Assembly (NCBI GenBank): GCA_937142855.1
Contig: CAKZQZ010000071.1
Span: 1-40,239, forward strand
Origin: an uncultured Alphaproteobacteria bacterium
GTDB taxonomy: Bacteria > Pseudomonadota > Alphaproteobacteria > Puniceispirillales > Marisalimonadaceae
Direction of reading: 5' to 3'
DNA: 40,239 nucleotides
Shown here: one piece after another, positions 236 through 34,275 of the stretch
How the letters are laid out: each line of letters opens with the position of its first letter
Numbering within the stretch: the first letter of the stretch is position 1
Program-made: the position numbers and the translations under genes
Notes under the pieces: generated by a model
Seen by the model: the letters and a program-made list of their open reading frames with translations, nothing else
Told to the model about the DNA's origin: nothing
The model's database searches: none

Positions 236-757
236 CTAATGTTCCAATATTTCATTTATTTTTAAGATAAACGTATAAAAACAACAAATTGTAAGCAGGA
301 AAAATGAAAGAATTACTGGTAAAAAGGGAACCCAAATAGGAAAGGCTAGAAGCATGGTTTCTTCTTGGTAAACATACATATCTTTTGCTCCTAGAATCAT
401 TCGAGAGCTAAAGAAAAAAGCAACTAAACCAAAAACAAGAGAGCTGGCGGCATCTAAAATATTAATGTTACGGGAAGATAATTTAGTTGTAAAATAGTCA
501 ACCTTAATATTTCCATTTTTTAGATGACAAAGAGGAAGAAAAGAGCCAATTGCAATCGCACAAGCCATTTCAATTAATTCAAAATCACCAATAATAGGAG
601 ATGAGAAAACAACTCTTCCAAAAATTGAAAAAATGCTGATCAGAGCAGCTATTAGTAAAGCAATACCCCCCAAAAACGCAAAATATCTAGATGTTAGATT
701 TAAAAGATGACCAAAGTTTTTGTATAAGCTAATTTCAGTTGATTTTTCTTTAAACAT
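236..757 (-). CDS. dctQ: TRAP transporter small permease DctQ
   Basis: Small integral membrane subunit of the TRAP transporter, 173 aa, the usual family length. Four hydrophobic segments are visible, at about residues 25-50, 60-78, 100-122 and 138-165. The stretch DFELIEMACAIAIGSFLPLC followed by HLKNGNIKVD is the typical DctQ central motif. The gene sits between dctP (13 nt upstream) and dctM (5 nt downstream), so it belongs to a dctPQM operon. DctQ and DctM form the membrane complex that receives solute from the DctP receptor. No strong Shine-Dalgarno sequence precedes the ATG, so translation may be coupled to dctP. Confidence 0.92.
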   Translation of the reverse strand: MFKEKSTEISLYKNFGHLLNLTSRYFAFLGGIALLIAALISIFSIFGRVVFSSPIIGDFELIEMACAIAIGSFLPLCHLKNGNIKVDYFTTKLSSRNINILDAASSLVFGLVAFFFSSRMILGAKDMYVYQEETMLLAFPIWVPFLPVILSFFLLTICCFYTFILKINEILEH

Positions 758-770
758 TTTAAAATTAAAT

Positions 771-1805
771 TTAGCTCATTTTTTCATATTTTGAAATTAA
801 TGATTTAGCCGCATCATATAGTTTTTGTCCGTCAAGGCCTTTATCATTAGCATCTTTAATCCAGTCTAGAATAACATCGTCAGCAGCTTTTTTTACTTCT
901 TCTAATGGTGCCCCTGATAGGATATGAAATTTTCCACCAGCCTTAACTGCTAAATCACGAGCTGGGCCTTCGAATTTATCCCATAAAATTCCAGCTTGTT
1001 TTGCAAGAGACATTCCAGAGTTTTTATTAATAATTTCCTTATGGCTTTTTGATAATGCGTTATATCTATTTTTGTTCATTATAAATAAGAAAGGAGCTGT
1101 ATAGATTCCTCTGTTACCCGCAACTTCAGTATGAGATTTTGTAAGTTCTTGAAGTTTAAAAGATGGCATTATTTCCCAAGGTACAACCATTCCATCAATG
1201 ACACCTTTAGATAAAGATGGGGCAACTTTTGGAATTGGCATCCCAACTGGCGTGGCTCGTAATTTTTTTAATAGGTTTGTTGCTGATCTAGTAGGGCCTC
1301 TTAATTTAAGTCCTTGAAAATCCTTTAACGACTTAATTAGAGTATTTTTTGTATGAATAGTACCAGGTGAGTGTACGTGTACTGCAAGGATTTTGTAATC
1401 TTTGAGATCTTCTGCACCTATGGTTTCTACAAATTCTTGAACTGCTTGGGCGGTAACTTTAGCGCTGGTTGGCATAAACGGTAATTCAAAAACTGAGAGT
1501 CTTGGAAATCTTCCGGGAGTATAGCCCGCTACTGTCCATATAACGTCCACAACTCCTTCACGAACCTGGTCAATAAGTTGTGGTGGTTTTCCTCCAAGTT
1601 GCATAGAAGGATAAAATTCAGTAATTATCTCGTTATTACTTTCTTTTTTGACTTTGTTAAACCAAGGTTTAACAAAATTAGCTATTGTATTGGAAGGCAT
1701 TGGAAGCATTGTATGAAATTTCAAGGTTATTTTATCTGCTAGCGATGGAAAAGAGAGTGCAGTTGAAAATAAATAAACGATTATAAAAAATACGAATTTT
1801 TTCAA
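771..1805 (-). CDS. dctP: TRAP transporter substrate-binding protein DctP
   Basis: Periplasmic solute receptor of the TRAP system, 344 aa. A signal peptide covers about residues 1-23 (hydrophobic core FVFFIIVYLFSTALSF, likely cleavage after SLA). The mature part has the DctP pattern, including GLKLRGPTRSATNLLKKL, whose conserved arginine usually binds a substrate carboxylate, and a late FIMNKNRYNALS segment. The start is TTG at 1805, preceded by GAGGAAAT at a normal distance. It is the first gene of the operon and diverges from the FAA-hydrolase gene at 1995. That neighbour suggests the imported solute is degraded by a hydrolase pathway for ketoacids, but the ligand cannot be read from the sequence. 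Confidence 0.93.
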   Translation of the reverse strand: MKKFVFFIIVYLFSTALSFPSLADKITLKFHTMLPMPSNTIANFVKPWFNKVKKESNNEIITEFYPSMQLGGKPPQLIDQVREGVVDVIWTVAGYTPGRFPRLSVFELPFMPTSAKVTAQAVQEFVETIGAEDLKDYKILAVHVHSPGTIHTKNTLIKSLKDFQGLKLRGPTRSATNLLKKLRATPVGMPIPKVAPSLSKGVIDGMVVPWEIMPSFKLQELTKSHTEVAGNRGIYTAPFLFIMNKNRYNALSKSHKEIINKNSGMSLAKQAGILWDKFEGPARDLAVKAGGKFHILSGAPLEEVKKAADDVILDWIKDANDKGLDGQKLYDAAKSLISKYEKMS

Positions 1806-8277: not shown

Positions 8278-10314
8278 TTAACCAGACAACATTTTAGGAA
8301 ACCAAAGTGCTATGTCTGGTATAAATAAAACTAACATCATCCCAATAATTTGCAGGCCAATAAATGGTAGGACTGCCATAAAAATTTCCTGTAATTCAAT
8401 TTCTGGTGGAGCAACAGATTTTAACCAAAAACATGCAGGACCGAAAGGTGGAGATAAGAAATAGATTTGTATATTCATAACAAATAATACACCAAACCAT
8501 ACTGCTGCCCAAGCTGGATCCAATCCAAGCTCTGGAGCCATGCCGACAACGACTGGCGCAAATACTGGAACTGTTATAAAAGCAATTGCTATCCATTCCA
8601 TAAATGTACCTAAAATAACTAATATAAGCATCATTAAAGCAACAACGGCTAATGGTGAAAGACCAAGTCCGGTGAATAAAGATCTCATAAAATCTGCACC
8701 ACCAATTAGGTTATATATACCAACAAAAGCTACAGCACCTAATATTAGCCAGACTATTGTTCCAACAGTCGACATTGTTCCTGCAAGAGCTTTTTGCAAA
8801 AGGTTCCAGCTAAAAGAGTTTCTAACAAATGCAACTACTATTGCACCTATTACTCCAACTGCAGCTGCTTCAGTAACCGAAGCTATTCCAGCATAGATAG
8901 ATCCCATAACACAAAAAATTAAAAATACACACATCATTACAGCGGATTTTTTCTCTTTATTTAATTTCATTTCTTTTCCACGAGCCTTAGCTACTTCTTC
9001 AGCGTTAGGGGCAAGAGATGGATTTATATAACATCTGATAAGAGTAAAAATAGCATAAAAAGTAGCGAGCATTAGACCTGGGACAGCACCAGCCATAAAT
9101 AGATCACCAATTGCTACATTTGCTGATAAACCATATACGATCATAATAATACTTGGAGGAATAAGAGTAGCCAATGCACCTGACGCACACACAACGCCAA
9201 TAGCCAATTTTCTATTATATCCGAGACGCATCATTTGAGGAAGTGCTACTAATCCAAGCATAACAATCTCTCCACCCATAACACCTGACATTGCAGCAAG
9301 AATAACAGCAACAACAATTGTTTGAATTGCAACACCACCACGAAGTTTACCTGCAAAAATTTGCATTGCGTCAAATAAGTCTTCTGCCACTCCAGCTTTT
9401 TCTAATATCGAAGCCATTAAAACGAACAATGGCACGGCTATAAGAGGATAAGCCTCTAAAAGCCCAAACGCATTTGTTGAAACTAGATATAATCCATTAA
9501 ACCCAAAATAGAACAGTGCACTTAATATAGATACAAATAATGTTACAATCCCAAGAGGCATCCCAGTCGTCATCAATAAAATCATTAGCCCAACTATTAA
9601 TATACTTGCCCATTTAATGCCTATATCTCTAATATCGATATATTTAGTTGGCTCTAAATAAGCTGCTATAGAGCTAAGATGCTCGTTGATTGCCGTAACG
9701 CCCTTTAACTCAAAGGCATGTTCAAAAAACACTAAGATTAGTCTGAAAATAATAAAAGCGGCGATGCCAGAAATTATATTTTTTGCAACTTTAGAGTCAA
9801 AATGTCTGTAAAGGTTTACCAAAAGTTGAGTTAAATATACCATAGATCCTAGAACTAACATTGTTTTTAGTATTAGAGGTTGGGGTGAATTCCAAGCAGT
9901 GCCTGCTCTTTCAACCATCATTACAGATTCTATTGCCCTTACAAGAGTATCATCAACAAACATCCACAAGGCTATTACACCTATTACATAAGCAAAAAGG
10001 TCCAAATACCATTGCTTAGCCTTACTCACCATAATATAGATTACTGTTATTCCTATATGTCGCTTATGGAGAGTGATATAACCTGCAGACAACATCCATG
10101 CAGATGCGCACAAAACCATTACAGCTTCAAAAGCCCATTGTGTTGGTGCATCAAAGACATATCGTGATATTACTTCATAACATGTTATTAATGCGCAAAG
10201 AAGGTATAGCTGGGAGACAGCTAGTCCTAAAAATTTACTGATGTGATCTACAAAATTGAGTTTGTCTGTGGTAGGAGGAAATTGATCATTGTTTACTACT
10301 TTGCTAACTTCCAT
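8278..10314 (-). CDS. TRAP transporter fused permease (DctQ-DctM fusion)
   Basis: About 678 aa. Residues 1 to about 180 form a DctQ domain (CYEVISRYVFDAPTQWAFE, then ITLHKRHIGI). Extra helices follow to about 240, and then a full DctM domain (AYPLIAVPLFVLMASILEKA, SGVMGGEIVMLGLVALPQMM, ASGALATLIPPSIIMIVYG). It imports a solute in symport with Na+ or H+. Start: the ATG at 10314 follows GGGGGA with good spacing. An ATG at 10326 would add four residues but lacks a ribosome site. Its receptor gene (10624) is on the opposite strand, diverging from this one, rather than in the same operon as usual. Confidence 0.92.
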   Translation of the reverse strand: MEVSKVVNNDQFPPTTDKLNFVDHISKFLGLAVSQLYLLCALITCYEVISRYVFDAPTQWAFEAVMVLCASAWMLSAGYITLHKRHIGITVIYIMVSKAKQWYLDLFAYVIGVIALWMFVDDTLVRAIESVMMVERAGTAWNSPQPLILKTMLVLGSMVYLTQLLVNLYRHFDSKVAKNIISGIAAFIIFRLILVFFEHAFELKGVTAINEHLSSIAAYLEPTKYIDIRDIGIKWASILIVGLMILLMTTGMPLGIVTLFVSILSALFYFGFNGLYLVSTNAFGLLEAYPLIAVPLFVLMASILEKAGVAEDLFDAMQIFAGKLRGGVAIQTIVVAVILAAMSGVMGGEIVMLGLVALPQMMRLGYNRKLAIGVVCASGALATLIPPSIIMIVYGLSANVAIGDLFMAGAVPGLMLATFYAIFTLIRCYINPSLAPNAEEVAKARGKEMKLNKEKKSAVMMCVFLIFCVMGSIYAGIASVTEAAAVGVIGAIVVAFVRNSFSWNLLQKALAGTMSTVGTIVWLILGAVAFVGIYNLIGGADFMRSLFTGLGLSPLAVVALMMLILVILGTFMEWIAIAFITVPVFAPVVVGMAPELGLDPAWAAVWFGVLFVMNIQIYFLSPPFGPACFWLKSVAPPEIELQEIFMAVLPFIGLQIIGMMLVLFIPDIALWFPKMLSG

Positions 10315-10470
10315 TATTTCCCCCATATTTTACTTGTTAATATAAAGTTTAGTATTTAAAAAAAAATGGTAAAGAAAAATTTATATTTTCTTATATAAAA
10401 TTTAAATTTTTAGAAAAAAAGTTGATATCTGATAAATTATTCTTCATGCTATTAATAATGGGAGGAACTT

Positions 10471-10593
10471 ATGGAAAATCAAGGAAGAAACGATCACGTT
10501 CAATATTATGGGCCATGGGGTTGGATTGGTGGTCTAGCCCTAGGCGCAGTTATTATTTTTACAATGTTTTCAATAGCTGATGGTTTTATGTAA
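10471..10593 (+). CDS. Small single-pass membrane protein, 40 aa
   Basis: An ATG at 10471 follows a near-perfect ribosome site (GGGAGGAACTT) and opens a 40-codon frame ending TAA at 10593. The N-terminal 15 residues are polar (MENQGRNDHVQYYGP). A hydrophobic segment follows at about 16-36 (WGWIGGLALGAVIIFTMFS), ending in ADGFM. It lies 30 nt upstream of the DctP receptor gene on the same strand, so the two are likely co-transcribed. I do not recognise the family. Its position suggests an accessory part of the TRAP transporter, but that is inference. The ribosome site and tidy membrane topology make a real gene likely. Confidence 0.7.
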   Translation: MENQGRNDHVQYYGPWGWIGGLALGAVIIFTMFSIADGFM

Positions 10594-10623
10594 GTTTATT
10601 AATTAATTATAAAGGAGTTTTAA

Positions 10624-11655
10624 ATGAAAACTAAATTAACAAGTATTTTAGGCATTACGGTTGCAGCATCTATAATGGTGTCTGATGTAAATGCTAAAAA
10701 CATAAAAGTGCAAGCAAGTTCTAAATCAGGGGACTGGGCTCATTTATTTATGACTGAAAATTATGCACCTCGTCTTAAAGCAATGACAGGTGGTGCGCTA
10801 TCTATAACTGTATTACCTACTAAAGCTGTTGTTCCTCACAGAGAGACAATTGACGCTGTTGCTAATGGTATTTTAGATGGTGACTTAAATGCTATCTCTT
10901 ATTTTGCAGGAAGAGATCCTGCATTTGCAATGATTGGTGATTTGATCGCTGGTTGGGATACGCCTGAGCAACTTCAAACATATTGTATGCATGGCGGTGG
11001 TAAAGAGATACTTCAGAAAATGTACGATACTTTGAAAGTAACCTCAGGTAAAATTCACGTTATTGGATGTAGTCCATATTCAAGAGAAGCATTAGTTTCA
11101 AAAAATAAGATTACGACTGTTGCAGGTCTTAAAGGCATTAAAATCAGATCACCTGAAGGTCTAGCTGCAGAAGTTTTTAGACTTGTTGGCGCTTCCCCTT
11201 CTTCAATTCCTTTCTCAGAAGTTTATACTTCTTTAGAAAAAGGTATTGTTGATGCAGCAGATGCATCTGCTTATGTAAATAATAACGCTTCTGGAATGCA
11301 TAAAATTGCAAAATTTCCAATTTATCCTGGTATTCACTCAATGGCTAATCTTCAATTCATAATGAATAAGAAGCTATTCAATAAGTTATCAAAAGATAAT
11401 CAAGTTGCTTTAGAAACTTGGTATATTGCCGCTTATACTGAAATGAGAAGAGCTGCTGACATTGAGGATAAAGAATTAGTTGCTAAGCATAAAGCTGGTG
11501 GTGATATTACTGTAGTTGATTGGGCACAAGAAGAAAGAGATAAGTTTCGTAAGATCTCAGTTGGTGCTTGGGAAAACTATGCTAAGAAGAGTCCTTTAGC
11601 TAGAGAAGCCCTTAATTCACAGTTAGCTTTCATGAAGAAAATGGGAATGCTTTAA
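10624..11655 (+). CDS. dctP: TRAP transporter substrate-binding protein DctP
   Basis: 343 aa periplasmic receptor. Signal peptide about 1-24 (SILGITVAASIMVSDVNA). The mature protein shows the receptor pattern of TRAP systems with fused permeases: SSKSGDWAHLF, LKGIKIRSPEGLAAEVFRLV with the carboxylate-binding Arg, and VYTSLEKGIVDAADAS. The start has AAGGAG 6 nt upstream. It partners, by location, with the fused permease at 8278-10314 transcribed the other way. It ends just before a strong hairpin shared with the amidase gene. The ligand is unknown; binding proteins of this subgroup often take 2-oxo acids, but the sequence does not decide. Confidence 0.92.
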   Translation: MKTKLTSILGITVAASIMVSDVNAKNIKVQASSKSGDWAHLFMTENYAPRLKAMTGGALSITVLPTKAVVPHRETIDAVANGILDGDLNAISYFAGRDPAFAMIGDLIAGWDTPEQLQTYCMHGGGKEILQKMYDTLKVTSGKIHVIGCSPYSREALVSKNKITTVAGLKGIKIRSPEGLAAEVFRLVGASPSSIPFSEVYTSLEKGIVDAADASAYVNNNASGMHKIAKFPIYPGIHSMANLQFIMNKKLFNKLSKDNQVALETWYIAAYTEMRRAADIEDKELVAKHKAGGDITVVDWAQEERDKFRKISVGAWENYAKKSPLAREALNSQLAFMKKMGML

Positions 11656-11674
11656 ATAATTAATAATTAAGATT

Positions 11675-11709
11675 AAAAAGCTTGCTGTAAAGATTTCAGC
11701 AAGCTTTTT
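11675..11709. terminator. Bidirectional intrinsic terminator
   Basis: Perfect 13-bp stem AAAAAGCTTGCTG / CAGCAAGCTTTTT with a 9-nt loop. A-tract and T-tract flanks let it work on both strands. It ends the dctP transcript and also overlaps the last bases of the convergent amidase gene. Confidence 0.88.
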
Positions 11710-13024
11710 ATATTCTACCAAGCATATATTCAGAAATTTTTAGTAACTTTGAATCGTCTTTCCAAGAAGTTATTACTTGGATACCGATTGGCAAATTATC
11801 ATTTCCTTTTAAAATTGGAAGACTAATTGCGGGGACCCCCATCATTGTCCAATATCCATTAAATATTGCATTACCAGTATTCATTAGATCTCTTGGTGCT
11901 TGACCGGGAGCTGCTGGCGTAATGATTGCATCAAATTTTTCGAAAACTTTTTTAAGACTTTGTTCCATTAATTTTGCGTTTTCAATTGCTTCGATATAAT
12001 CCTTAGCTGAAACTGGCAAACCTGCTTCGACCCTAGAAATTGTAAAAGGGTGAAGTTTATCTTTTTCATTTTCATAATATTTAGACAATGATCTAGCAAT
12101 GGAGCCATTCATTATAATCTCATGACTCTTTGCTGCACTTTCAAAAATAGAATTCAGTTCAAGATCTACGATATTCATAGAAGAGTTCTTTACAAAATTT
12201 GTTATACCTTCTCTCATGTCTTGTTCACCGTAGTTCCAAACTGGTCCTTTAATAAATGCAAATTTAGGAGAAGGATCTATTTTACTATCGTTCTTATATT
12301 CAAAATTTTTGATCATATCTAAATCATTCTGATCATATGATAAAAGAACAGAGGCTACTAAATCAATATCATCAATTGTGTTAGCATATATTCCAGGATG
12401 ATCTAATCTTTGTGATATTGGAGACATACCATATCTAGAAATTGTACCAAATGTTGGCTTGTAACCAAGAATACCATTAAACGACGCCGGCCTTAGAACG
12501 GAACCTCCTGTTTGAGAGCCAATAGATAAAGGTATCATATTGTCACACACCGCGGCAGCTGACCCAGAAGATGAACCGCCAGGAGTGCATTCAAGGTCAT
12601 TTGGGTTTTTAGTTTTCCCAGGTCCTGAAAGAGCAAACTCAGTCGTTACACATTTACCCATTATAACTGCACCAGCTTCTCTTAATAATTTTACAAGGTG
12701 AGCGTCTTCTGTGGGTTTCCTATTTTTGCATGCTTTGGAGCCATTCTCAGTAGGCATGTCTTTAGTATCAATGATATCTTTAATACCAATTGGAAGGCCA
12801 TTTAATTTGCCTGCATTTTTATTCTTCCAGCGTTTATCTGCCTCTTTGGCTTGTGCAATAGCAAGTGCAGGTTCTATGAAAGCCCAAGCTCCAACAAGCG
12901 GTTCTCTTTTTTCTATATGTTCTAAAAAAGCACTTACATATTGTTCTGAAGAAAGCTCTCCTCTCTTCATCATTTCAAGTGCTTTAGTGGCATTTAATTT
13001 AATCAAATTCATTTTTAGACTCAT
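11708..13024 (-). CDS. Amidase-signature family hydrolase
   Basis: 438 aa. The Ser-cisSer-Lys triad is visible: Lys in GLPIGIKDIIDT, the cis-Ser in GGSSSGSAAAV and the nucleophile Ser in SIGSQTGGSVLRPASF. It hydrolyses an amide, releasing ammonia or an amine. The family includes GatA, but the absence of gatB and gatC nearby and the catabolic setting argue for a free amidase. Start ATG 13024, with another in-frame ATG four codons later; neither has a strong ribosome site. It lies 3 nt after the RidA gene, which suggests coupling. Its final codons overlap the terminator stem. Confidence 0.9.
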   Translation of the reverse strand: MSLKMNLIKLNATKALEMMKRGELSSEQYVSAFLEHIEKREPLVGAWAFIEPALAIAQAKEADKRWKNKNAGKLNGLPIGIKDIIDTKDMPTENGSKACKNRKPTEDAHLVKLLREAGAVIMGKCVTTEFALSGPGKTKNPNDLECTPGGSSSGSAAAVCDNMIPLSIGSQTGGSVLRPASFNGILGYKPTFGTISRYGMSPISQRLDHPGIYANTIDDIDLVASVLLSYDQNDLDMIKNFEYKNDSKIDPSPKFAFIKGPVWNYGEQDMREGITNFVKNSSMNIVDLELNSIFESAAKSHEIIMNGSIARSLSKYYENEKDKLHPFTISRVEAGLPVSAKDYIEAIENAKLMEQSLKKVFEKFDAIITPAAPGQAPRDLMNTGNAIFNGYWTMMGVPAISLPILKGNDNLPIGIQVITSWKDDSKLLKISEYMLGRI

Positions 13025-34107: not shown

Positions 34108-34275
34108 CTAACTTTCTTTTTCGTTTGGATCTTTAGTAAGATATACGCCATAGCAAAATCCACCAATAGCAAAAAAATTTAGAACAAAATTAGCTTCTGC
34201 CAAATCCAGGCTTCTTATTATCCCCCATAACAAACACAAACTAATAATTGCCCAACCTATAAATTGCTTGTTCAT
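34108..34275 (-). CDS. Small two-helix membrane protein, 55 aa (paralog of the 35961-36134 gene)
   Basis: A 56-codon frame with a strong ribosome site, AAGGAGAG, 4 nt before the ATG at 34275. Helix 1 is about residues 5-20 (FIGWAIISLCLLWGII). Helix 2 is about 30-47 and ends IGGFCYGVYLT, followed by a charged tail KDPNEKES. The second helix and tail match the 57-aa gene 1.8 kb away (IVGFCYSVYIT), so the two are likely paralogs. Function unknown. It diverges from the CIA30 gene. Confidence 0.65.
   Translation of the reverse strand: MNKQFIGWAIISLCLLWGIIRSLDLAEANFVLNFFAIGGFCYGVYLTKDPNEKES

Follow-up and report, generated by a model that had tools for sequence, protein, structure and literature searches.

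A conserved small membrane protein encoded with TRAP transporters in SAR116 bacteria and other Alphaproteobacteria

The stretch of DNA analyzed here (40,239 nucleotides from an uncultured alphaproteobacterium, referred to below as the window) contains a TRAP transporter locus in which a short gene lies between a fused permease gene, dctQM, and the gene of a solute-binding protein, dctP (Table 1). A preliminary description had proposed a ribosome-binding site and an ATG opening a short frame with one membrane helix, placed 30 nt before dctP and facing the fused permease. The locus has this arrangement: the frame encodes MENQGRNDHVQYYGPWGWIGGLALGAVIIFTMFSIADGFM, followed by a TAA stop, dctP begins 30 nt 3' of that stop, and dctQM is divergent. 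Matches to PF03480, PF04290, and PF06808 are all above their cut-offs, which means that the P, Q, and M components of a TRAP transporter are all present, and DctQM aligns with the solved TRAP permeases 9pym, 7qha, 8y4w, 8thi, and 7qe5. The spacer between the divergent genes presumably holds the promoters of both; a promoter scan of it found five sites compared with 6.8 expected from shuffled sequences, and no terminator. A second TRAP system is located at the left edge of the window (239-1805, minus strand; DctQ at 239-757 and DctP at 774-1805 by Pfam), where a search of the window's own genome found no homologue of the peptide. That genome yielded 18 DctM matches, some of which are pieces of one gene, and the peptide occurs beside the window's dctQM only.

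Table 1. Features of the TRAP locus in the window, in order of position.
Feature	Position	Strand	Basis and remarks
dctQM, fused TRAP permease	8278..10326	-	PF04290 and PF06808; divergent from the small gene
Spacer between divergent dctQM and small gene	10327..10470	.	Sequence and promoter scan
Ribosome-binding site GGGAGGA of the small gene	10460..10466	+	Sequence; four bases 5' of the ATG
Small gene, 40 codons, single-pass membrane protein (predicted)	10471..10593	+	Homologue survey, alignment, dN/dS, AlphaFold2; TAA at 10591-10593
Spacer with dctP ribosome-binding site AAAGGAG (10611-10617)	10594..10623	+	30 nt; RNA structure unremarkable
dctP, TRAP solute-binding protein	10624..11655	+	PF03480; closest PDB sequence match 4pe3

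The window peptide has a single hydrophobic stretch, as do the 28 members examined. AlphaFold2, run with 15 related sequences, predicted one helix (residues 15 to 38; mean pLDDT of 77.6) and left the N-terminal tail poorly defined. Among the members compared, the C-terminal tail has at most eight residues and gene length ranges from 39 to 60 codons; 22 of 28 have an N-terminal tail of negative net charge, which in six of them lies between -7 and -10. Close homologous copies carry a purine-rich site at the equivalent place upstream, which is weaker in L035 to L039 and L041. By our own criteria, the 40-kb window holds three short frames that combine a ribosome site with a hydrophobic stretch. 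One 55-codon frame with both features lies at position 34275 on the minus strand. This combination is weak evidence by itself; conservation decides whether such a frame is a gene.

We searched 101 genomes with the peptide (the window's own and 100 relatives), and 53 matched at an E value of ≤1. From these we retained 48 loci in 47 genomes (E ≤ 6.7e-4) and left out eight weak places (E of 0.116 to 0.7). All 48 copies are exactly 40 codons long, with ATG, GTG, or TTG as the start codon, and 12 of the 40 positions are invariant in an alignment of 15 copies. Median dN/dS was 0.16, with no value above 1, for 39 distinct genes (741 pairs, of which 393 were usable and are non-independent). The five other frames of the same DNA gave medians of 1.01, 1.19, 1.22, 0.51, and 1.45. 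Because length is fixed in every copy and dN/dS is low relative to the other frames, we conclude that the frame at 10471-10593 is a genuine gene under selection as a protein. The probability that it is open by chance is negligible. Hydrophobic short frames behind a ribosome site do recur in the window, but fixed length and dN/dS already refute a chance origin, and conservation of the peptide extends to other families and to a genome of another class.

One feature of the start region varies. At 28 of the 48 loci (L008 to L034 and L040), the ribosome site is itself part of a stretch in frame with the gene (MSRTK...), and translation from an additional ATG 24 nt upstream could also yield a 48-codon form.

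The small gene is tightly linked to the TRAP genes in close relatives. dctP adjoins it in 48 of 48 loci and dctQM in 47, the one exception being a locus where the contig ends 30 nt before the peptide. A test set beforehand was whether the frame occurs upstream of close dctP homologues (E ≤ 1e-80); it was present in all 45 genomes, among the same 101, that have one, and in the remaining two peptide genomes (G027 and G028) dctP is cut by the contig end. Of the 48 stretches, some of them cut short, only 33 show the amidase gene beyond dctP. At the thresholds used, peptide and dctP are both missing from 10 of 39 genus mates, some of them with incomplete genomes, and the system is therefore dispensable. 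A pattern scan of genome contigs returned 41 loci labelled SAR116 cluster, alpha proteobacterium, Alphaproteobacteria, or Rhodospirillaceae; it used one pattern from the conserved end, which finds close copies only, and many of the loci are shared with the 48.

When L001 and L002 (from the two closest genomes, G000 and G030) were compared in 120-nt bins over window positions 8971 to 12090, dctP was 96 to 100% and dctQM 83 to 100% identical, the peptide bins 80 to 83%, and the spacer 64%, with the downstream amidase region within 64 to 83%. Either the peptide would be less constrained than dctP or its flanks may have recombined.

More distant members place the gene differently. Using a profile built from SAR116 copies only, a position-blind search of 386 genomes of the class matched 11 of them at E ≤ 0.01. 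The profile already included two of these, and G155, G272, G409, and G480 were dropped as chance matches in frames of 206 to 562 codons. Among the five genomes that remained, G134 has the layout of the window, and in G201, G457, and G138 the small gene comes immediately behind dctQM or dctM. In the fifth, G282, the peptide is on a different contig from the clade dctQM, which sits at a contig end; we kept this genome as a probable member despite the lack of an adjoining permease. A wider profile applied to 397 genomes of the phylum found eight places in seven genomes. Five places were new to the profile, all of them directly 3' of dctM or dctQM, and one was in a genome of another class by its kinship label. 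With a third profile, the class set yielded 12 genomes at E ≤ 0.001, namely ten with the peptide beside this TRAP system, G282, and one chance match (G453, a 251-codon frame, dropped); since this profile contained several of those genomes, the result is a confirmation and no independent test. Up to 19 candidates per genome were scored in the class searches and up to 17 in the phylum search, and up to 3 in the DctQM search described below, such that misses are possible.

Across these searches and named database records, three arrangements recur. The gene is divergent from the permease and ahead of dctP in the window, G134, and Sulfitobacter dubius; it follows a fused dctQM in G201, G457, Acuticoccus, and Thalassospira; and it follows a separate dctM in G138, the f35 genomes, G349, and Marinovum. 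The preliminary placement "ahead of dctP" is thus accurate for the window, SAR116, G134, and Sulfitobacter dubius, but not for distant members, where the gene comes after dctQM or dctM. Because distant members place it there, gene order indicates that the constant neighbour of the peptide is the permease rather than dctP and that the peptide is not a dctP leader. In the furthest members, no more than 14 to 22% identity to the window copy is left. Database entries for the gene read "hypothetical protein" in Acuticoccus, Sulfitobacter, and Marinovum, and it is absent from the Thalassospira gene table, which is known to be incomplete.

Some individual loci depart from these layouts. G282 (L138) and G370 (L107), both of family f78, share a variant peptide (MLEEDPNDPMPDRM... 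/ MIEEDPNDPMPDRM...), which is convergent to dctM in G370 and lies beside a threonine-aldolase-like gene, as read from the sequence, in G282. G695 (L153) encodes two clade permeases, one fused and the other with dctM as a separate gene, and behind each lies a divergent peptide copy of its own.

The association was also examined from the permease side. We searched the 386 genomes of the class with DctQM, making no use of the peptide and scoring at most three candidates per genome, and obtained 38 places at E ≤ 1e-120. Twelve fell in the DctM clade of the window, and the peptide adjoins 11 of these (convergently in G370); it was beside none of the 26 places outside the clade. Such consistent genetic linkage was mirrored by a separate scan of the 500 nt 3' of dctM for short frames that have a ribosome site and a hydropathy of 2.0 or more. 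Frames of this kind followed dctM at 7 of 35 loci; all seven are among the 9 clade loci, and the 26 loci outside the clade had none. Among plasmid records (8 examined of 84 with a DctQM match), the peptide was found in all five that belong to the clade (Acuticoccus, Thalassospira, Sulfitobacter, Marinovum, and Allorhizobium) and in none of the three outside it (Azospirillum, Ruegeria, and Skermanella).

We then placed 60 rows in a DctM tree, which was built by a quick method from sequences chosen partly via the peptide and partly via DctQM, and which includes 8 of the 48 close loci (L046 and L104 are one gene). A branch with SH-aLRT support of 100 separates 31 rows, 30 of them with the peptide, from 29 rows that all lack it. 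The sole row without a peptide inside the branch is L106 of G282, and the clade includes both fused and unfused systems. These comparisons indicate that the peptide follows one clade of TRAP permeases, for which a single gain at the base of the clade would be the simplest reading.

The window peptide matched no Pfam or NCBIfam family above cut-off. The best match of eight further members in Pfam was PF14141 (YqzM; E = 0.076, 13.5 bits against a cut-off of 27), and that of 15 members in NCBIfam had an E of 0.061, below cut-off. We found no TRAP accessory peptide in the literature searched, which was largely that outside subscription journals and bioRxiv. The suggestion that a small transporter-associated protein of this kind is undescribed for TRAP systems fits both this result and the gene linkage.

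Tiny one-helix subunits encoded in the operon of their own complex, of the KdpF and CydX types, provide one comparison. The peptide is likewise tiny, operon encoded, and predicted to form one helix, but its members fall below every Pfam and NCBIfam cut-off, and the partner here is an elevator-type secondary transporter. A second comparison is with AcrZ, which is tied to AcrB, and with SgrT, MgtS, MgtR, MgtU, MntS, WatS1, and LucB. These regulators are small and tied to a transporter, as the peptide appears to be, and AcrZ is also a single helix (PMC10710835, accessible part). The accessible part of that paper names no TRAP partner for AcrZ and its kin, and our sequence comparison with them consisted of the Pfam and NCBIfam scans. 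TRAP systems such as DctPQM and SiaPQM are described as P plus Q plus M, and Q together with much of M makes up the permease scaffold (PMC10942642, accessible part). All three components are present at the window locus, which differs in encoding a fourth, small membrane protein with the permease. HiSiaQM likewise has an extra helix beside Q and M, the fusion helix, but according to the accessible part of the same paper that helix is part of the fused chain, whereas the peptide is separate and accompanies fused and unfused permeases.

We consider it probable that the peptide is a dedicated inner-membrane protein of one TRAP clade, a fourth protein besides P, Q, and M, whose helix packs against DctQ and DctM and stabilizes or tunes transport. 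This proposal draws on selection at the protein level, occurrence with this TRAP clade, and the way the gene stays with the permease across several gene orders; what we infer is that the peptide resides in the inner membrane, binds DctQM physically, and affects transport. By analogy, the peptide would be a single-helix accessory subunit or modulator of DctQM, acting as AcrZ does for AcrB, and the short single-pass helix expected of an AcrZ-like mode is predicted here. The helix would lie against the Q/M scaffold of the permease, a view that one helix, a short C-terminal tail, and a mostly acidic N-terminal tail all fit. The acidic tail weakly hints at a periplasmic N terminus. More tentatively, and on balance doubtfully, one TRAP branch might be a four-part system in which the acidic tail of the peptide, which may be periplasmic, affects how the substrate-loaded P component docks or is released, and in which the peptide is needed for normal transport.

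Neighbourhood to a gene is no proof of binding, and other functions have to be weighed. The peptide could instead be no fixed part but a conditional regulator, like SgrT, MgtR, and MgtU, that would bind the permease only occasionally, either to inhibit it or to control whether it is degraded or protected. Its size, one helix, and transporter linkage are those of known small regulators (PMC10710835, accessible part). We regard this as unlikely, however, because throughout the clade the small gene adjoins that of the permease or of P, frequently within one operon, and constant co-production fits that arrangement better, although a regulator might be produced in this way too. Leader and arrest peptides are found upstream of the gene they control, with RNA structure that hides the next ribosome site. 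It is very improbable that translation of the small gene controls dctP in this way: the gene does lie just upstream of dctP in SAR116, G134, and Sulfitobacter dubius, and its last residues are strongly conserved in SAR116 copies, but elsewhere dctP comes first and the peptide follows dctQM or dctM, the conserved end ADGF is lost in distant members, and the window spacer has no Rfam match and an RNA structure z score of +1.29 relative to shuffles. For the same spacer, an RNA element or attenuator is likewise unsupported.

Hardly credible, finally, is a membrane protein of separate function that just happens to be encoded in the operon, such as a general insertion or stress factor. The variant locus of G282, with its threonine-aldolase-like neighbour and a permease on another contig, would suit such a protein, but whether the peptide is present goes with the DctM clade rather than with the genome (11 of 12 places versus 0 of 26), across families and gene orders.

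Possible origins within the permease were considered separately. Replacement of the fusion helix is out, since the peptide occurs with fused dctQM as well as with separate dctQ and dctM. An hhalign comparison of peptide alignment A2 with DctQM showed no relation (probability of 0.05%, E = 0.83), and we therefore rejected descent from a DctQM helix. Nothing points to a lost M helix that the peptide would replace, since in two sequence-based alignments the M domain matches solved permeases from end to end. Among clade-specific DctM residues, 16 positions passed our filter and indicated no peptide interface; some of them may lie near the transport site of TRAP structures.

Gene content offers some indication of what the clade transports. 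IlvD/Edd dehydratases are encoded nearby at L105, L108, and L114 (by Pfam) and in Marinovum (by annotation), and other neighbours include a glycerate kinase in the Sulfitobacter dubius record and 2-hydroxyacid dehydrogenases (by Pfam). These neighbours suggest a sugar acid or other hydroxy acid as the substrate, which we consider a fair guess.

The clade spans SAR116 bacteria, other Alphaproteobacteria, and one genome of another class. With a conserved fourth protein, the set of proteins to be expressed in studies of these importers would change, and if the four-part reading is true, attempts to reconstitute them from P, Q, and M without the peptide would be unsuccessful or misleading. The peptide would also provide a small, defined handle on the stabilization or gating of an elevator-type secondary transporter.
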